Shown here: piece by piece, positions 32,778 through 43,852 of the stretch | How positions within the stretch are numbered: the first letter of the stretch is position 1 | Layout: each line of letters opens with the position of its first letter | Origin: Auricularia sp. M13 | Taxonomy: Eukaryota; Basidiomycota; Agaricomycetes; Auriculariales; Auriculariaceae | Assembly (NCBI GenBank): GCA_037042915.1 | Contig: CM073193.1 | Coordinates: 6,076,001 to 6,140,000 of the forward strand | Direction: 5' to 3' | Length of the DNA: 64,000 nt | Notes under the pieces: generated by a model | The model's database searches: none | Told to the model about the DNA's origin: nothing | The model's input: only the letters and a program-made list of their open reading frames with translations | Program-made: the position numbers and the translations under genes

Positions 32778-32789
32778 ATCTCGACAATA

Positions 32790-32792
<3 letters not shown>
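32778..32792. repeat. LINE target-site duplication, left copy
   Basis: ATCTCGACAATATCT; an identical 15 bp occurs at 43838-43852. The last T merges with the poly(T) tract, so the duplication is 14-15 bp. Confidence 0.9.

Positions 32793-32821
<29 letters not shown>
32792..32821 (-). repeat. Poly(A) tail of LINE (30 T on plus strand)
   Basis: Thirty consecutive T on the plus strand, that is a 30-nt A tail at the 3' end of the minus-strand LINE, directly beside the target-site duplication. The length suggests a fairly recent insertion. Confidence 0.9.
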
Positions 32822-32822
<1 letters not shown>

Positions 32823-33683
32823 TGGTGCTTAGTGTTACGAATTCATATATAATATGATCTTCACACATGCGTCAAGGTAGAGGCTCAGGACTCTTTGCCA
32901 CCGCTGGGGAAATGCTTTAGGCACTTCAAACTGTGTGTGGGACTCCGGCAGTGGCTGTAGTCAAGGACTACAGTCTGGTGGGCGATCAATATTGCCGATA
33001 CCCACTAAAACCCCAGATTCTCTTTCTGAGCATAGGTGTTTTAGATGCATGTGCAAGGGCGTGTCCTGCCAAGTTTGTAAGACTAGTTTCCGTGGCAAGG
33101 ACTTTTTGTTATGTGCAACTTCAGACATATAAAAGTCCAGACGCATGCGTTGTTCAATTATGTATGTCCATTTGTGGTGAATTTCCTGATGTGTGGGTAA
33201 TATTGTTGGATCCTGATTATTAAATAGGCGTCTGCATCGTATTTTCCAGATAAGGTGTGCAGACTCTGAGATCAGGATACGGTAAAGTCTATTTGTCGCA
33301 TGAAGTTTTTTATTGTCTATTCCCTTAAACTCCATTTGTGCGCATGAAAGAATTGTGGCGAGGGAGGGGGTCGGCCAGTAAGGGTGTTTTTTCTCCCAGA
33401 ACTGTTTTGCTAGAGACCAGATTTGCGCTTGGCCATTACCAGGGCATTCTGTTAGTATGTGTTCCATTGACTCTTCGCATTCGCACACAGGGCATATTTC
33501 ACGCTGCTCTTTTTCAGGGACATGTGACCAGTCACGCCCCAGTTTGTATGCACCATGGAATAATTTCCACATATAGTCACGCACTGGGCGTCTGAGATCC
33601 TTTGTTCTGATGGATTTCCACAGTTTATCATCTGGAACAACATCACCAGATACTTCAGCATTAGCACATCTTGCCATTTCAAT

Positions 33684-33688
33684 GTTCA
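33684..33688. repeat. Gypsy element target-site duplication, left copy
   Basis: GTTCA directly before the LTR start; repeated at 42314-42318. Confidence 0.9.
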
Positions 33689-34414
33689 TGTTAAGCCTGC
33701 TGTGCCTTGGGGGTTTGGTTGCAAGGATAGTCGAACGTCCGGGCGCAGAGAACACTCGAACGAACAACTAGAGCCTTCGGTGCGTTATTGAGCACACCGG
33801 CTACGTCGAGTAGCACGACCGAAGGGACCGCGAGCAGCAGAGGACTCAGACGAGTAAGTCGGGCGAAGGGAGAACCCAGATGCGAAGTCGAGAGAGAGAG
33901 AGATAGAGTGTGCGAGGGGCACGACTATGTCGATTTCGTAACTGGGGAGCTAGATACAAAGTCGAGGGTCTTTTATACCTGGGGAGGTGATCCGATGTAC
34001 TCGGAGTGTATCCTAGAGACGAAGGAGAAGGGGCCTCAGATCAATAGAGATCGTCGTCATCGGCCGATAGGATGAGTAAGAGCGAGTGGGTAAGGTATCG
34101 GGGGATCGGGCGAATGACGAGAGGCGAATGACTAAGACGAGTGGAGCGAACCGGATATGAACACTATCGATACAGTAGGGACAAGGCGAGTTAGGTGGAT
34201 GTATGCGAGTAAGGAGAGAAGCTAGAGAAGTGAGGGAGAGGTCTAGAGGTAGAGGACGATGAGGAGAACATATCCCGAGCATATGAACACGAGGGGAGAT
34301 AAGCCGGGTATTCGGGAGCTTGACCGAGTTGACCGAGTTGGCCGAGTGACGTAGAATGACGCCGAGTGATGCCGAGAGCACGTGGGGTCCGCGGACCGGG
34401 GCACGGGCGTAACA
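33689..34414 (-). repeat. 3' LTR of Gypsy element
   Basis: 726 bp, with TG..CA-type ends (TGTTA/TAACA inverted ends). It matches the copy at 41588-42313 with about one difference seen by eye. It contains a short GA-rich microsatellite and repeated GACCGAGTT units. Confidence 0.92.
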
Positions 34415-34613
34415 GTATCCCCCCTTTACGTCCTGAGCCCACGAAGGACTGCAGCAACGCAAGGTGAATACGAAAAATGAGACAGCACGCACTCGAGTCC
34501 GAATGGGGCCAAAAGATCGGGTCGGGTCGGAACGGGTCGGACGCAGATTAAAAGTGGTTGGGTCGGGAGTTGAATCGTCGAACCACTCTTTGTCTTCTGC
34601 CCGCCGCCCACCA

Positions 34614-35849
34614 TGCCGCGATACGAGTCGCTCGAGGACGTCGCCGCCGCGACGACCGCAAGACCGTCGGCGCCGTCATGAGGTCGCTCGAGGACGACCC
34701 GACGATGGAGGCGCTGATCGCAGCGCACGAGGACGCGGCGGACGCTCGGCGGCCTACAGCAAGAGGCCGTCGACGAGGAGGACCTCGACGCGATCGAGGC
34801 GTTCAGCGCGCGCAGGCGCCAGGCGAAGGCCGAGCTGCGCCTGGCGGCGCAGCGACGCTTCGGGATGCTGGCCGAGCGCGTGGCCAGGATCGCGGCGGAC
34901 GCGGGCGCCAAGGCGACAAAGAGCCAGGCGTCGCCGGCGAAGGCGCCGACCACGAGCACGAAGGCGCCGGCGAAGGACGCGAGGGAGACCGAGTCGCCGC
35001 CGAAGAGGCGGAAGGCCATGGAGGTATGGGTCGAGCTCCCGCGATTGCGGGACGTTGCTAAGGTGCGCTTATTTTGCAGGTCGAGAGCGCGAAGACGACT
35101 CAGGCGCCGCGCAAGGTCGCGCCGAAACCCGCGCCGGTCGCGGTCGCTCGCTCGCCGTCGCTCGGGGCGGGCGAGACGCTCGAGGACGACGACGAGGTCG
35201 AGGAGATCGCGAGCCCGGTGGTGCCGGCCACGAAGCCCAGGCCCAAGCCCAAGCCGCGCGCCGGCGGCAAGTTCACGGACAGGTGGCCGGAGGTGCCATA
35301 CGGGGCGCGGTTCCCGAGCCCGGTAAGTCTTCGATTGTTCGTGTTTTGCTCGCCGGGGCTGACATCGAGCAGTGCGAGGCTTGCGTCAAGCGCGGCGGTC
35401 CGTGCGTTCGAGCACACCGCTCGAACACTTGCACCGCGTGCAACCAGAGCCGCGGCAAGTGCACGCACTCGGGCAAGCCCTTCGTGCCGCGCGGCGAGAA
35501 GAGGGCGGCGTCGCCGAGTGCGTCGCCCGAGCGCCCCAAGAAGGTGCGGATCGTCGAGGGGACGACGCTGGGGACGCGGGCGGCCGAGGATCGCGCGAAG
35601 ACGGCCGAGCACCGCAGGGTCGTGGAGAACCACGCCCTGTGGACGAACAATTCGGTGCACAACATCGAGCGGATGTTGTACCGGATGCTGCAGTGGCAAG
35701 CGCAGCAGTTCGGCCAGTCGATCGACGAGTCGATCGACAATCCGTTTTCGAGCGAGGAGGAAGAGGAGGCCGAGGAGGAGGTCGAGGAGGAGTCCGAGGA
35801 GGAGGACGAGGAAGCGGTCGAGGAAGCGACCGAGGACGCGGACGAGTAG
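34614..35849 (+). CDS. Extra antisense spliced gene carried by the Gypsy element
   Basis: Coding-looking plus-strand region between the integrase/chromodomain end and the 3' LTR, opposite in direction to gag-pol. Two introns with good consensus, 35024-35079 and 35323-35372, separate Lys/Pro/Ala-rich exons. The exon after 35373 opens CEACVKRGGPCVRAHRS and TACNQSRGKCTHSGK, a cysteine cluster reminiscent of zinc-binding DNA-contact motifs. A predicted helix follows (NIERMLYRMLQWQAQQFGQ), then a very acidic Glu-rich tail. The 5' start near 34614-34706 is unresolved. Similar cysteine-cluster proteins are, as far as I recall, often annotated with agaricomycete Gypsy elements, but I know of no established function. 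Whether it is expressed cannot be told. Confidence 0.5.
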   Translation, partial: CRDTSRSRTSPPRRPQDRRRRHEVARGRPDDGGADRSARGRGGRSAAYSKRPSTRRTSTRSRRSARAGARRRPSCAWRRSDASGCWPSAWPGSRRTRAPRRQRARRRRRRRRPRARRRRRRTRGRPSRRRRGGRPWRYGSSSRDCGTLLRCAYFAGREREDDSGAAQGRAETRAGRGRSLAVARGGRDARGRRRGRGDREPGGAGHEAQAQAQAARRRQVHGQVAGGAIRGAVPEPGKSSIVRVLLAGADIEQCEACVKRGGPCVRAHRSNTCTACNQSRGKCTHSGKPFVPRGEKRAASPSASPERPKKVRIVEGTTLGTRAAEDRAKTAEHRRVVENHALWTNNSVHNIERMLYRMLQWQAQQFGQSIDESIDNPFSSEEEEEAEEEVEEESEEEDEEAVEEATEDADE

Positions 35850-38800
35850 GCGATAGGATAGAGTAGTAGCGGGTGCGACCAAAGTCGCCCAAAAATGTAA
35901 TAAATGACTGTTTCTTGGAATCGGGTGAAAAGCGAGTGAGCGAAGAAATAGCGAGTGAAAAAACGAGTGCTTAGATGTTTTCGAATTTCTTGAGGATCTG
36001 CTGGAATTCTTGATAACTGCCGGGAGCGCTGGGATTTGCAGCATAGAAGTCTTGAACTGCTTCCTGCGCGTGTTCGAGATTTTCGGAGCCCATCTCGGTG
36101 GTCTCGGGGTCGTCGGGAGTGCCGATGTGACCGATCCAGCGAATGCGAAAACGAAGGCGCGAGTGACGATGGCGATTGTCGATGCGTACGCTGAGTACTT
36201 CGAGCTCGTACTCTTGCTCGCCGTCGACGACGACGGGCGGAGGAGGTTCTTGACGTTGACCGGGGAACGCTTCTCGAGGGTGGGGTTCGAGTTGCGAGAC
36301 GTGAAAGACCGGGTGTACGCGAGCGAGGTAGTCGGGTAGGCTGAGGGTGAACGATTGCGAGCTAGGTTGATCGACGATCGGGAACGGGCCTAGGTAGCGA
36401 TCGGCGAGTTTGCGAGTGGGCTGCGTCGTCTTGATGTGTTCCGAGAGGACGTAGGCCATGTCGCCGACCTTGAAGTCAGGCGGGGAGTGCGTCGAGCATT
36501 CGCAGATGCAGTGTAACGCTTCTGAGCGGCAGCGATCTGCTCCTTCAGGACGTCCTGCAGTTCGTGGATGTCGACAGCGAAGTCGCGGGCGCGAGCGGAG
36601 GCAACGTCGCGCTCGGGGTAGACGGAGATGTTCGGGTGAAAACCCTTGTTGGCGAAGAAAGGCGAGACACCAGTCGAGTCGTTCGGGGTGTTGTTGTACG
36701 TGAACTCGGCGAGAGGGAGTAGCTCGGACCAGTTGTCCTGCTCGTAGTTGCAGTAGAGACGGAGGTACTGCTCGAGCGTCTGGTTCGTGCGTTCGACTTG
36801 ACGTTCGCCTCCGGGTGGTGACCCGAGGTGAAGTGCATGGTCATGTTGAGGAGCGAGCCGAGTGCGCGAAAGAAGCGGGAGACGAATTCGGAGCCGCGGT
36901 CGGTAGAGACGTGCGAGGGAGCGCCATGTTTGGCGAAGACGTGGATGAGGAAGAGACGCGCGAGTTCTTCGGAGGTGATCTTGCCCTTGGTCGGGACGAA
37001 GATACCCTGCTTCGAGAGGCGATCAATAATGACGAGGATCGCGGTGTAACCGTTGGACTCAGGGAGTTGTTCGATGAAGTCCATCGAGATCGAGTCCCAG
37101 TTGCGAAGCAGAATCGGGAGCGGTTGAAGTCGACCGTACGGCTTGTGTCGTCGAGGTTTGCTGCGCCCACAGGTGACGCAGGCCTGGACGTAGGTACGAA
37201 TCGAGTCGCGCAGGTCGGGCCAGTAGTACTCGCGGGCGACCATCTTGAGTGTCTTGTTCTGACCCGGATGGCCAGCGAGCGGGTGATCGTGCTTTTCGCG
37301 AAGGATACGAAGGCGACAATCGAGAGCGTTCGGTACGTAGATCCTGCCCTTGAACAGCAAGAATCCATCGTCCGAGGCCGACCAGTTGATCGCGTCATCG
37401 GTGCCGAGTTTCGAGCAAATGTCGAGAGCGAGTTCGTCCGAGTCGTACGAGGCGCGAATGTCATCCCGAATGGACTGAGTGTCCATGATCGTGGCTGCGC
37501 GAAGGAAAGTCTCTTCAGCATACGTCGCGCGAAGGGAAGCGGCGAACTGTTCGAAGTAAAAACGGGTCGGAAGTTCTGCGGGTTTGCGCTGGCGTAGCCA
37601 CCATCCCCCTTTTGAGATAGACGTCGTGGCGGCGAGTGAGAGCATCGGGTTTGCCGCCGAGTCGACCGGGTCGAAAGCGAATGAGGAGGTTGAAGGTAGA
37701 AAGGTACTCGGACCAGCGAGCTTGCCGACGAGTGAGCATCTTCGTGGTAGAGAAATACTCGAGGTTCTTGTGGTCCGTGACGACGTCTATTGGGGTCTCG
37801 GCCCCTTCGAGGTAGTGTCGCCATAGCTCGAACGCCTCGAATATCGCGAGTAGCTCCTTGTCGTGCGTGTCGTAGTTGAGCTCGGTGGGAGTGAGCGTGC
37901 GCGAATGGAAAGCGACGGGGTGAACAGAGCCGTCCGGGAGGACGTGCGAGAAGATCGCCGCGATCGCGTAGTCGGAAGCGTCAGTCTCGACGACGCGAGG
38001 AAGAGCGGGATCGAAGTGGTGAAGGACGGGAGCGCAAGTGAACGCCTTCTTGAGCTCGTTGAACGCAGCGAGGCATTGCGGAGTGAAGTTCCACGTTGCG
38101 GTCTTTCGAGTGAGACGAGTGAGCGGGACGACGATATCGGAGTAGTCGTAGATGAATCGTCGATAGAAGTTCGCGAAGCCGAGGAACGACTGGATGTCGC
38201 GAACGTTGCGAGGAACGGGCCACTCGAGGAGGGTGGCAATCTTCTTCGGGTCCATGCTGATGCCCTCGGGGCTGATGATGTACCCGAGGTACTCGATGGT
38301 GTCAGCATGGAACTCGCACTTCTCGGGCTTACAGAAGAGGTCATTCTCCGCAGCCGTCGAAGGACCTCTCGAACGTGTTCCTCATGCTTCGAGGGATCGT
38401 CCGAGTAGATAAGGATGTCGTCGAGGTAGACGGTGACCGTGACGTCGAGGAGATCGGAGAAGATGTCGTTCATGAAGCGCTGGAAAGCGGCTGGAGCGTT
38501 CGTGAGACCGAAAGGCATGACGAGATACTCGTAGGTGCCGTAGCGCGTTCGAAAGGCAGTCTTCCACTCGTCGCCGGCCGCGATGCGAACGTTGCTGTAT
38601 CCGACACGAAGATCGAGCTTGGTGAACGTCTTGGCGGTGCGAAGGCGGTCGAGCGTGGACGAGATGAGCGGAAGCGGGTACTTGTCCTTCCGAGTGATCT
38701 TGTTGAGCCCACGATAATCGACGCATAGGCGAAGAGAACCGTCGGCCTTCTTGACGAAGAGAACCGGGGGCGCCACCCGGGGACGACGAAGAGCGAATGT

Positions 38801-40939
38801 GTCCTTTGCTGAGGTTATCCTGAATGTACTCCCGAAGCGCGAGTTGTTCGGGCTCGGAGAGCGAGTAGATCGGACCGGATGGGAGAGGCTTGCCTTCTTC
38901 CATGTCGATCTTGAGATCGTACGGCCGATGTTCAGGGAGTCGATTCGAGGCCTCCTTTGAGAAGACGTCGAGGAACTCGTGATAACACTCGGGGATGCCT
39001 TCGCCGGTTTCCGAGGCCGGGTTGGCAGACGCAGAGCGAGCGGGCACCGATGGATCTCGAATGTAGATGGCCGAGACCATCGAGCCGCGAAGTCGACGAG
39101 AGGTGTCGAAGGCTGCGGCGCCGATGATCTTGATGTCGACGCGAGCAGCGGCCGCGCGAAGGGCGGTTTCGTCCATCGGCGGTTCTGGAGGCAGAGTACG
39201 TGGCGCGGGAGGAGGTGACGACGGAGTCGGAGGATCCGAGTCAAGCGAAAACCCAGGGACGAAACCCGAGGGATCCGAGGGCGAGACACGAGTGGGGAAA
39301 GAGATGCGGTGATGGAACCAGTCAATCCTAGGATTGTAGCGGGCCAACCAGCGGTATCCCAGCACTGCAGAGCAAGTCGGATCTAGAGTGGTGAGGAGGA
39401 AGTTGATGATCATCGAAGTTCCGCAAGGGAAGCGGACGGGAAGCGACACGTATTTGGAGATAACACCGCGATAGGAGCCGTCGAAGAGCCGAAGGCGTAG
39501 CGGTTGATCGAGAGACTTTTGAGGGAGTCGAAGACTCTCGGCGAACTGAGTATCGAGGAACTGATCTTCGGAGCCGGAGTCGACGAGTGTGCGAAAGGAT
39601 GGGACAGCGTCGGAGGAAAGGACGACGATGAGAGCGTCTTGATCGGTGAGCGCGGCAGCGTTCAACCGAGTGTAAGGCATCTTGGGCTTGACGCAGTTAG
39701 CCCTAGATGCCCGTGGGGAACTGCCCGTTAGTTTTTCGCTTCCGCCGGGGCAGAAGCGGCGGCGCCCGAGGGAGCAGGAGCCGGCGTCGAGGAAGTCGCG
39801 GGTTGAGCCCTAGCGGCGCGACCCTTCGACTCGCGATTGTGAGCGGCCTTGCGGCACTCGGACGCGGTGTGGCCGGCGTGGCCACAGTAGAGGCAGAGGT
39901 TGTTATCGAGGCGACGGCGTCGTTCGGCGTCGTTGAGCTTGCCGTTCGAGTTGAGGTTCTTCGCGACGTCGTCCTTCGACTTGGTCGTGGTCTTCGAAGA
40001 CGAGCGGGCCGAGGTCGAGGACTGACCCCTCGAGTTCGAGTGGTTGTTCGAGTTGCTGTTGTTGCCGTTGTTGCCGTTGTTGGAGCGCGCGTTGGACTTG
40101 GTGTTCGATCGGGAGCCCGATTGAGGCGTCGCGGTCGAGGTGGTCTTCTGCGCTTTGCGGGGTTCGTTCGCGTGCTCGAGAGCTTGCTCGTCCTTATCGA
40201 TCCAGTAGTTGGCGTCGATGCTAAGAGCGAGCGCAGCGAGTGGCGTCAGGGAAGCCGGGCGTTGAGCTACTTGAGCAGCGAAGACAGATTTGATGCGGCG
40301 AGGGAGTCCGCGATAGAATTGCGAGGCGAGTGCAGCGTCGTCCCAGCCGAGCAGTTTGGCGTATTCGTCGAACTGGAGCTTGTAGCGGGCGACCTTGCCG
40401 TTGTCGGCCATTTGCAGTCGTCGAATCTTGACTTCGGGCGCGTTCGCGTTCGTTCGTGACGCCGAAGGTGATCGTGAGTTCGTTCTTGAATTCGTTCCAA
40501 TCTTCGAGGAACTCGTAGCCGGGAGGCGGATTCGGGACGAGAGGAACGTAGCCGCCCCACCATTCCTTCGCCCGACCCGAGAGATAGGTCGCGGTGAAGA
40601 GAATCTTCTCGCGGGACGTCTGGTACTTCCGAGGGTTGGCGAGGAAGTAGGTTTCGCAGTCGATGAGGAATCCGCGAAGTTTGTTGGCGTTTTCGCCGTC
40701 GAATTTGTCGGGTTTGGCGGCGTCGATGCGAGAGCCGCTGTCGCGGTCGACGAAGTAGACACGAGGGACGTTGTCGTGTTAATCGTGGAATTGTCGTTCG
40801 CGATCGACGTCCGAGTCGTAGCCGTCCGACGGGGGTCGAAGGGAGGTCCCGGGGACCAGGAGGATCGTTACCGCCACCACCGCCCCCACCGCCGCCACCT
40901 CCGGGAGGAGGGTTCGGAGGGTGCGAGCCGTGCGAGTGG

Positions 40940-41070
40940 TGCGAGTGGTGCGAGTGGTGCGACGAGGGCGAGGGAGCACCTCGATGACCACCACCGCCAC
41001 CGCCGCCTCCGCCGCCTCCGCCTCCACCGCCGCCACCTCCGCCGCCTCCTCCGCCACCCCCGCCGCCACG
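40940..41070 (-). repeat. Gly-rich trinucleotide repeats in gag region
   Basis: Plus-strand CCNCC-type runs give a poly-Gly stretch in the gag-sense reading. Neighbouring GAGTGGTGC units repeat three to four times (about 40935-40962). These are simple-sequence arrays within the LTR element. Confidence 0.7.
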
Positions 41071-41574
41071 CCGGGGCGTGTTAGGGGTGCCGGAATGGAA
41101 GAAGCCGCGGAACGACGAGGAGTGCTGCGAAAAGCGAGGAGTCGAGCGAGAGCCGGTGTACGGAACGAGCGCGAGAGGGTGTCGAGAGCCGAGCGAGTGA
41201 GTCGAGGGATGCGAGGGCGATCGCGTCGTGTGACTTGAGGGAGGGTAGGAACCGCTCGGGTCCGCGCGTAGTGTGGACTGGGCCGGCGAGAAACGCGAGG
41301 TGTGAAGCGAGCCGGAGAGAGTGTGTTGCGAGAGGATTTCGTCATCATCGTTCGGCGGTTGCGAGTGCCGAGATGATCCGAAGCGGCTAGTGCCCGACAT
41401 CGAGACTGATGGCGAAGGCGTAGCCGGCTGAGGAGGTTGTTGGTCGCGAAGACGAGCCTGACGACGGGCTTCGCGAAGGATAGCGTCGGGGAGTCGAGTA
41501 GAGGATGAGGTTCTTCCTGGTTTCTTCTGAGGTTCTGTCGAGTCCCAAAGGCCATACAACTCGAGCGGAGCTCG

Positions 41575-41585
41575 AGTTACGAAAT
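41575..41585 (-). promoter_or_regulatory. Primer-binding region of Gypsy element, self-complementary to the predicted RNA 5' end
   Basis: Two bases after the 5' LTR the element-sense strand reads ATTTCGTAACT. This is the exact reverse complement of AGTTACGAAAT at 41842-41832 inside the LTR, 34 nt after a TATAAAAG box (41876-41869). That is the layout of Tf1-type self-priming elements. I did not see a tRNA 3' end match here. Confidence 0.7.
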
Positions 41586-41587
41586 AC

Positions 41588-42313
41588 TGTTAAGCCTGCT
41601 GTGCCTTGGGGGTTTGGTTGCAAGGATAGTCGAACGTCCGGGCGCAGAGAACACTCGAACGAACAACTAGAGCCTTTGGTGCGTTATTGAGCACACCGGC
41701 TACGTCGAGTAGCACGACCGAAGGGACCGCGAGCAGCAGAGGACTCAGACGAGTAAGTCGGGCGAAGGGAGAACCCAGATGCGAAGTCGAGAGAGAGAGA
41801 GATAGAGTGTGCGAGGGGCACGACTATGTCGATTTCGTAACTGGGGAGCTAGATACAAAGTCGAGGGTCTTTTATACCTGGGGAGGTGATCCGATGTACT
41901 CGGAGTGTATCCTAGAGACGAAGGAGAAGGGGCCTCAGATCAATAGAGATCGTCGTCATCGGCCGATAGGATGAGTAAGAGCGAGTGGGTAAGGTATCGG
42001 GGGATCGGGCGAATGACGAGAGGCGAATGACTAAGACGAGTGGAGCGAACCGGATATGAACACTATCGATACAGTAGGGACAAGGCGAGTTAGGTGGATG
42101 TATGCGAGTAAGGAGAGAAGCTAGAGAAGTGAGGGAGAGGTCTAGAGGTAGAGGACGATGAGGAGAACATATCCCGAGCATATGAACACGAGGGGAGATA
42201 AGCCGGGTATTCGGGAGCTTGACCGAGTTGACCGAGTTGGCCGAGTGACGTAGAATGACGCCGAGTGATGCCGAGAGCACGTGGGGTCCGCGGACCGGGG
42301 CACGGGCGTAACA
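41588..42313 (-). repeat. 5' LTR of Gypsy element
   Basis: 726 bp. Contains the TATA box (41869-41876) and a predicted transcription start at about 41842, so U3 is about 471 bp. Near-identical to the 3' LTR. Confidence 0.92.
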
Positions 42314-42318
42314 GTTCA
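42314..42318. repeat. Gypsy element target-site duplication, right copy
   Basis: GTTCA directly after the LTR end, matching 33684-33688. Confidence 0.9.
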
Positions 42319-43837
42319 ACAGTGTGCGCTGTCTTTCAGGAACCTTTTTTAGTGCCAGGATTTGCTTGTACGCAGTAGCCTGAGAGAGGGTTTGCAGCTT
42401 AATTCCCCGTGTATCAAAATCTGCAGGGTAGTTGATATCAACTACATCAGGATTCTCACGATTTGAGGCCTGTTTGGCGCGCTCGTGAGTTTGGTGCATT
42501 TCTGTATCTGATTTAATTGGAACATATTGAATAGTAGTTCTAGCTTCACGAGCACGTAGAAGACATATTAATGCCCTGTATAGGTGTGCACATTTATTTC
42601 CAAACCATCCATTATCATAGTTAGATGTGCAGCTTACAGTAATATTTTTAATGACACGCTTAGAGCAAGACTTTAGGTGAAGGATGCAGTCTATAGGGGC
42701 TGATTTCGCAGCCAGAATCAAGGCTAATATATCTCCTTCCTCTTGTAAGTTAAAATTATTTGGAAGGCGATTGCTAAAGCGCTCAATTGAGTCCTGGATT
42801 TTCATGGTCCAGGCCGAGGCAACTTTAGAGTCAACACATTTCCTGTTCCGAGCAAATCCTGCGCACCAGACAGTGTATTCGTTAGGGTTTTCAATTTGAG
42901 CCCCTCTGAATGCAGGTTGACCTTTTGCGAGGATATGTACAGCATGATCATTTTCAGGCATTTGAGTGAATATTCTAAAGGCATCTGCTAAGGAGCTGGG
43001 CGAAGCAGCAGGGTTAAATGTTATGACCTTTCCCTGTTCAACGTCTGAGAGAGAGGGTTCAATGGCTGGTAGCCGATCAAGATCATTGGGTGGAGGTCGT
43101 TTAAGGGGATTCCATTTTGGTAGAAGGCTATCCAGAATCTTTTTGGCTGCTTTCGCACATCTATGAGGATTATTACAGCTTGTACTCTGCCTAATTTGGT
43201 TGCATTTGCGACATATACAGTTCTTATTGTTCCTGTGCCAATTGGAGTCGAGGATAGATGCTAAGGCGCAAGCGTCAGAGACTGTTTTGCACTTATGATT
43301 ATCAAGTAGGCACACAGTGCTGGCTGATTCCCTTGGTGATTTCTCAAGTGCAAAATGGCCCCATATCGGCAGATCTCCTTGTACTGATGCTTCAAGATAG
43401 GGGTGTGCGTCTAGTGATACACCAAATTCTTTTGCTAGTGCGAGCATTTCAGCCAGGTCACGAGGTAGTTTAGAGGTTTTAGTATTTCTAGTCTCAACTC
43501 CCCAATTTTGTACAAAGGGGTTTTCGCGTAAGTTAGCGCTCAACTTCTTTTCCTGGGTCTTGAGGACATTTAACCTTAATAGTGCATCAGCAACTTTTGT
43601 CCACAGAGGTCGAGGCATCTGTGTCAGGTAGTCGCGAAGCCAAGTCAGGGTGATCGCTTTGTTTCTAGCGCATATATCTAATAGTTGTTTACCACCTTGT
43701 CCTAGTGGGAGTTGGAGCACATCAAGTGCCACAGGTGGAGGGCCAGATTTATAGTTCCACATGAAGTCACGCACTATTTTGACCACACGCTGTTCAATAT
43801 GTTTAGGCATTCCTTGCGCTTTGGTAAGGAACTGTGT

Positions 43838-43852
43838 ATCTCGACAATATCT
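43838..43852. repeat. LINE target-site duplication, right copy
   Basis: ATCTCGACAATATCT, identical to 32778-32792. It marks the 5' end of the LINE; sequence beyond it (43853-44099) is host spacer downstream of UNC-50. Confidence 0.9.

Follow-up and report, generated by a model that had tools for sequence, protein, structure and literature searches.

What sequence of events has produced a locus in which one retroelement lies inside another, and does the inner element carry anything beyond the genes of its class? The question is raised by positions 32778-43852 of a 64,000-nucleotide stretch of the Auricularia sp. M13 genome (GenBank assembly GCA_037042915.1, contig CM073193.1, positions 6,076,001 to 6,140,000 of the forward strand), here called the window, in which a preliminary description had placed a young Gypsy element within a 5'-truncated long interspersed nuclear element (LINE). 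This nested structure is real, and all coordinates of that description were reproduced. The whole account to which the analysis leads, and in which we have high confidence, is that of a truncated LINE that later received a Ty3/Gypsy element with long terminal repeats (LTRs), a member of a recently active family, predicted to prime its own reverse transcription and to carry an antisense accessory gene. Nesting of retroelements with exact duplications is frequent, and the pair, a clean textbook case, is ordinary and contributes little by itself; greater weight belongs to the accessory gene. Coordinates are those of the window, and genome searches were carried out against the organism's own assembly (52.1 Mb, 14 contigs). 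The Gypsy element comprises the following features.

33684-33688, no strand: left copy of the inner target-site duplication GTTCA (exact match)
33689-34414, minus strand: 3' LTR (LTR pair comparison)
34419-34427, minus strand: polypurine tract AAAGGGGGG near the 3' LTR (by eye)
35971-39680, minus strand: pol region in several frames, with protease, reverse transcriptase, RNase H, integrase H2C2, rve and SH3_Tf2-1 (frames, Pfam)
39728-41559, minus strand: gag region in several frames, with Retrotrans_gag and CCHC matches under their cut-offs (frames, Pfam)
41575-41585, minus strand: predicted primer-binding site, complementary to the 11-nt self-primer and overlapping a hairpin (complementarity)
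41588-42313, minus strand: 5' LTR (LTR pair comparison)
41832-41842, minus strand: predicted self-primer, 11 nt, LTR positions 472-482 (complementarity)
41871-41876, minus strand: TATAAA box in the 5' LTR, LTR position 438 (sequence)
42314-42318, no strand: right copy of the inner target-site duplication GTTCA (exact match)

The two LTRs (726 bp each, TGTTA...TAACA) align with 0 indels and 1 difference, a C/T CpG transition at LTR position 90 (33778 versus 41677), and are identical at all non-CpG sites; both the GTTCA pair and the single difference estimated earlier by eye were thereby reproduced exactly. TG...CA LTRs with a 5-bp duplication and the order protease, reverse transcriptase, ribonuclease H, integrase identify the element as Ty3/Gypsy, and in pol the protease, reverse transcriptase, RNase H, integrase zinc finger and core, and SH3_Tf2-1 all score above the Pfam cut-offs. 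The name Gypsy is thus upheld by these domains, with the qualification that the gag match falls just under its cut-off and that the gag and pol frames are split.

The family is abundant in the genome: the LTR search gave 132 first-look candidates, of which the best 40, those that were scored, are 98-100% identical. Thirty LTR loci were fetched and 24 of them paired into 12 elements, all 12 with identical 5-bp duplications; the LTRs of other copies differ by 0.4-1.5%, and two loci (L017, L020) are solo LTRs with matching flanks. Two LTR pairs are widely spaced, C4:357581/386840 (29 kb apart, common duplication CCGAG) and C12:971099/991356 (20 kb apart, common duplication ATGGG), and probably represent single elements that have themselves been invaded. 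Over 8,694 aligned bases the 12 pairs together show 13 transitions, 1 transversion and 1 indel. Of the 14 substitutions 11 are at CpG, which accounts for 124 of the 726 LTR positions, an excess that suggests methylation-driven decay in young copies. If each site changes at 1e-9 to 1e-8 substitutions per year, 1 difference in 726 positions would mean about 70,000 to 700,000 years, and given the CpG decay the insertion is probably younger than such an estimate. Four of the 12 pairs are without substitution (one of them with a 1-nt indel), so that the family probably moved again later than this copy. The second event may therefore be called recent, as had been proposed, in the sense of young and not of youngest, and as judged by a CpG site that keeps time poorly.

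Despite the near-identical LTRs, gag, pol and the first exon of the antisense gene are all frame-broken in this copy. The first 1.5 kb of gag is in one frame in 5 of the 14 copies read, this one not among them, and its pol differs by less than 1% from that of one other copy. In the N-terminal half of Gag (~40860-41090, minus strand), GGN-type repeats encode long stretches of poly-glycine. As the LTRs were copied at insertion and no indel separates them, the frame damage is probably older than the last jump, and the copy probably moved in trans on the proteins of another copy; if true, a broken yet recently moved element would be a good example of trans mobilisation. Or do the breaks stem from faulty sequencing or assembly, in an element that is in fact intact? 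We regard this as possible but doubtful. All 14 indels shorter than 30 nt between this pol and that of the other copy are of 1-2 nt, and 42 of 52 pairwise counts of 1-2-nt gag indels lie near G or C runs (in these counts a difference peculiar to this copy can enter as many as ten times; the pair L023/L027 was left out). Against a general error, G/C runs of at least 4 are denser in the LTR (9 in 726 bp) than in gag (9 in 1500 bp), whereas LTR indels of 1-2 nt are few: the two LTRs of a pair show 1 in 7,986 bp over 11 pairs, and comparisons between copies 5 in 7,260 bp. Of the 71 indel counts in the antisense region, just 13 lie near G/C runs, and the aligned lengths of LINE copies that are 99% alike are equal or off by 1 over 1.5 kb.

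How would such an element start its reverse transcription? Complementarity within the element suggests that Tf1-type self-priming is likely, with the transcript start being predicted. Nucleotides 3-13 past the 5' LTR form the perfect complement of LTR positions 472-482, a segment that begins 34 nt below the start of the TATAAA box. In a control of 500 single-base LTR shuffles, 11 matching bases occurred in 0 and 10 in one. The 11-mer is present in all 30 fetched LTRs (at position 463-472), and the complementary primer-binding site in all 14 copies whose fetched locus reached that site. A hairpin of 10 bp with a 3-nt loop (41557-41579, minus strand) overlaps the predicted primer-binding site.

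Between pol and the 3' LTR, on the strand opposite to that of the Gypsy, a gene of three exons is predicted, with the following parts.

34613-35023, plus strand: predicted exon 1, frame broken in this copy (copy comparison)
35024-35079, plus strand: predicted intron 1, 56 nt, GTATGG...CTAAG...GCAG (splice signals)
35080-35322, plus strand: predicted exon 2, 243 nt, open (copy comparison)
35323-35372, plus strand: predicted intron 2, 50 nt, GTAAGT...CTGAC...GAGCAG (splice signals)
35373-35849, plus strand: predicted exon 3 with stop, comprising a cysteine cluster, a basic/helical segment and an acidic tail (genome matches, constraint, model)

The antisense region was found in all 14 loci reaching that side (interrupted in L023). 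Three of four diverged gene copies directly adjoin an LTR 97-98% identical to that of the family, the fourth being cut by other sequence, which makes the gene a part of the Gypsy element. Intron signals of the fungal type, GTATGG...CTAAG...AG for intron 1 and GTAAGT or GTGAGT...CTGAC...AG for intron 2, recur across the copies, with the CTAAG of intron 1 lost in L066. In the 15 of 18 copies parsed, intron 1 measures 56 nt (10 copies), 58 (3), 59 or 47, and intron 2 measures 50 nt (11 copies), 51 (2), 49 or 52; among these lengths 51 alone is divisible by three. The modal exon lengths are all multiples of three: 414 nt (7/15), 243 nt (11/15) and 477 nt with the stop (11/15). The gene is thus probably spliced, and exons 2 and 3 are open in the present copy. 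Antisense introns could not be removed from the genomic RNA, so that the gene would stay spliceable through each round of transposition.

Exon 3 opens with the cluster CX2CX6CX8CX2CX6C; behind it come a stretch that is basic and helical and then an acidic tail. Its search against the genome returned 50 match stretches, some of them two pieces of one copy, including 36 full-length matches (158 residues), 34 of which are free of stops. The ratio of nonsynonymous to synonymous divergence (dN/dS) is 0.09-0.40 in 13 pairs, selected by hand from the 120 possible among 16 sequences, with L005 (frame break) and L023 (interrupted) dropped and the stop codons in L065 and L066 skipped. Exon 1 is likewise constrained, with mean dS 0.124 and dN 0.040 (28 pairs) in a set limited to the 8 open copies of 414 nt, and hence biased towards constraint. 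Is this a gene, or is the antisense frame a by-product of G+C-rich coding sequence? Long spurious frames are plentiful in this G+C-rich region, exon 2 shows little constraint (mean dN 0.034 versus dS 0.053, 55 pairs), Pfam and PDB gave no match above chance level, and of the five control frames of exon 3 (three pairs) frame -2 is also low, at 0.39-0.50, an effect that probably arises from the coincidence of its third positions with those of the gene. The other four control frames give 1.26-1.61, far from the exon 3 values; moreover, 47 of the 50 match stretches are stop-free, and the splice signals persist among copies whose introns vary in length, most of these lengths not being divisible by three. 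On this evidence a mere by-product is improbable, and we retain the antisense frame as a gene.

What might its product do? Zn(II)2Cys6 domains follow the spacing CX2CX6CX5-12CX2CX6-8C, and the exon 3 cluster fits it. The Pfam family Zn_clus gave no match to exon 3 listed up to E 10, a PDB search with the cysteine cluster returned one chance-level match (E 1.7), and none of 212 pattern matches in viral contigs was confirmed as an exon 3 homologue; Pfam, PDB and viral contigs thus yielded no informative relative of the accessory protein. Single-sequence structure prediction of exon 3 reached a mean predicted local distance difference test score (pLDDT) of 65.6, with ~46 in the cysteine part, where the model is too poor to use. 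The cysteine cluster, the helix and the acidic tail, taken together with proposals made for antisense genes of plant elements, suggest, as the likeliest role of the protein, that of a regulator of the Gypsy that binds nucleic acid. Near-identical copies, coding constraint, splice signals and a candidate zinc-binding domain make the function of this gene testable within one genome.

The copies do not differ evenly along this gene. Twelve were compared with the present one per 100 bases over 1.5 kb (L023 left out). In the block ~35015-35114, mostly intron 1, 8 of the 12 differ at 14-17 sites per 100 and the other four at 0-4. In the block ~35215-35514, which covers the end of exon 2, intron 2 and the cysteine cluster, 10 of the 12 differ at 5-17 per 100, the exceptions being L012 (0-1) and L029 (0-6). 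Elsewhere in the 1.5 kb the differences are mostly 0-4 per 100, with a maximum of 8. L010 and L011 have the first block as in this copy and the second not. Template switching between co-packaged RNAs, or gene conversion, could explain such mosaics. As a tentative suggestion, we would picture a self-primed Gypsy family with an intron-bearing antisense cysteine-cluster regulator, in which the cluster segment and the introns pass from copy to copy as mosaic blocks, much as though the family exchanged variants of its regulator.

The outer element of the locus is made up as follows.

32778-32792, no strand: left copy of the outer target-site duplication (15-mer match)
32792-32821, minus strand: LINE poly(A) tail, 30 T on the plus strand, the first T shared with the duplication (letters read)
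32793-33688, minus strand: LINE 3' part with a C-terminal cysteine/histidine region (genome matches, open frame)
42314-43837, minus strand: LINE 5' part, cut off at 43837 downstream of the reverse transcriptase domain (genome matches)
43838-43852, no strand: right copy of the outer target-site duplication (15-mer match)

Its poly(A) tail and 5' truncation, together with the variable-length duplications of the family and an apurinic/apyrimidinic (AP) endonuclease and a reverse transcriptase in one frame, are those of a LINE. Matches in the assembly number 14 for the left-hand piece and 17 for the right-hand piece, this locus included, and the other copies inspected at their junctions have a poly(T) or T-rich tail at the corresponding 3' end. 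Closest to this locus is a copy on C10, with 6 differences in 665 sites; eight others show 30-41 in 866 over the same end. Pfam zf-RVT matches the 3' part with E 0.048, under its cut-off. Past the point equivalent to 43837, 7 other copies run on, starting with ACCGCC or CCCGCC, in sequence common to them; 5 share at least 1.5 kb more, and the sharing stops at ~510 bp in one and ~200 bp in another. The present copy is therefore 5'-truncated, as had been claimed. A longer copy identical to this locus past 43837, which would speak against that claim, was looked for, and all 7 continue in sequence unlike that of the locus, where the duplication stands instead. One of the longer copies, L062, has upstream of the truncation point, in one frame, matches to Exo_endo_phos (PF03372, E 3e-12) and RVT_1 (PF00078, E 2.4e-38), which places the truncation of the present copy downstream of the reverse transcriptase.

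The copy ending at ~510 bp has a junction duplication of its own of ~13-15 bp (by eye), and two short copies have duplications of 13 and 9 bp. Duplications at three other truncated copies support target-primed insertion as a habit of the family. The script used for this purpose found no junction duplication in L060 and L061 and only a chance-like 9-mer in L054, and it was uninformative for L046-L053 (8 of 15 copies) and mostly for L057, which it matched to themselves; the duplication of L051 was read by eye at its junction instead. Several LINE copies are interrupted by other sequence. L040 (C5:4099495-4100217) contains a 723-bp insert 97% identical to the Gypsy LTR, at which the LINE matches overlap by 5 bp, as in a duplication; this insert is a solo LTR, so that the Gypsy family hit the LINE family at least 2 times. 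Further inserts are found in L054/L058 (C10:676204-677227, 1024 bp, TG...CA, 5-bp overlap), in L041/L055 (C1:8998316-8998803, 488 bp, and C1:8999623-9000390, 768 bp and LTR-like) and in L043 (C5:4094684 on, ~4.2 kb, the first 1.5 kb compared), none of which matched the Gypsy LTR or interior.

With the Gypsy removed, one LINE frame is open for 748 codons over the insertion site, in agreement with the earlier observation that the frame continues unchanged there, and the site so restored matches 9 uninterrupted LINE copies apart from scattered substitutions. The order LINE first and Gypsy second is strongly favoured by these copies, which is less than the clear order originally asserted, since a composite move is conceivable in principle. 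In that case the Gypsy would have entered a source LINE elsewhere, and the LINE would have brought both here as one composite transcript; the two elements have the same orientation, so that one LINE transcript could span the Gypsy, and nested duplications look identical under either order. We consider this very unlikely, as no second composite occurs among the LINE matches listed, 9 copies read over the site uninterrupted, and transcription of the LINE would need to pass two LTRs without ending there. In the favoured order, a LINE with AP endonuclease and reverse transcriptase would have inserted by target-primed reverse transcription, its copying stopping early and leaving the 5' truncation, the 15-bp duplication and the poly(A) tail; later, integrase would have placed the Gypsy in the LINE with a 5-bp duplication.

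The outer duplication, ATCTCGACAATATCT, stands at both ends with no mismatch, as described before, beside the 30-nt poly(A); its length is 14 or 15 bp, base 15 (T) running into the poly(T) at 32792-32821. The 15-mer and its first 12 bases occur 2 times each in the window and 0 times on the minus strand, and with its position exactly at the poly(A) end and the truncation point a chance match is very improbable. The LINE insertion point lies ~120 bp upstream of the likely start codon (32655, by eye) of a NIPA-type magnesium transporter gene, which runs leftwards on the minus strand (PF05653, E 4.7e-8). The composite may cut this gene from upstream control; as such it is most likely the passive result of two insertions.

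Several observations weigh against the account as a whole. The 800-bp flanks of the composite have 1 match each in the assembly, which therefore contains no empty allele. The sole LTR difference, being a CpG transition, is a weak clock and makes the insertion hard to date, and the breaks in gag, pol and exon 1 could partly be assembly error. The splicing of the antisense gene is predicted from signals in the DNA, and 2 of the 36 full-length exon 3 matches carry a stop. A chromodomain is expected in many Tf1-like elements, and none was found in this Gypsy with Chromo to E 5 or in the PDB to E 10; the C-terminal chromodomain by which chromoviruses are recognized is thus lacking at these thresholds, a likeness to the consensus being seen by eye alone.

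Among known systems, Tf1 of Schizosaccharomyces pombe resembles the present element in the priming predicted here: according to PMC7175516, the first 11 bases of the Tf1 RNA are complementary to the primer-binding site, and the predicted self-primer of the Gypsy also has 11 nt and lies below a TATA box. The SH3_Tf2-1 match after the integrase is a further likeness to the Tf1/sushi group. Tf1 is not known to carry an antisense accessory gene, and in this the Gypsy of the window, with its predicted gene, is unlike it. Tcn1 of Cryptococcus neoformans has been proposed to be self-primed like Tf1/sushi, in a partial description (PMC7175516) that mentions no antisense gene; at the level of that description, the likeness lies in the self-priming proposed for Tcn1 and predicted for the Gypsy. 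Boty-like elements of Botrytis cinerea carry the antisense gene brtn (Zhao et al. 2011, as reported in PMC7264820, PMC8365987 and PMC4227169) and are, by description, likewise fungal Gypsy elements with an antisense accessory gene; these brief accounts of brtn mention neither introns nor a cysteine cluster, both of which are predicted here. Among the literature matches listed, seen in excerpt, no spliced cysteine-cluster antisense gene of a fungal Gypsy appears, and one may still be in print. Antisense genes of plant Gypsy elements, described in extracts of PMC7264820, lie between pol and the 3' LTR, are present in many copies and have been known for years, their function being unsettled; they have been proposed to encode nuclear or DNA-binding regulators (PMC7264820, PMC11963269). 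Position, orientation and copy number are shared with the gene described here, which in contrast has no TRP28 or SMC match and possesses a cysteine cluster and two predicted introns. As far as the literature listed shows, it is the combination of predicted self-priming with two conserved predicted introns and a constrained cysteine-cluster protein that is new.

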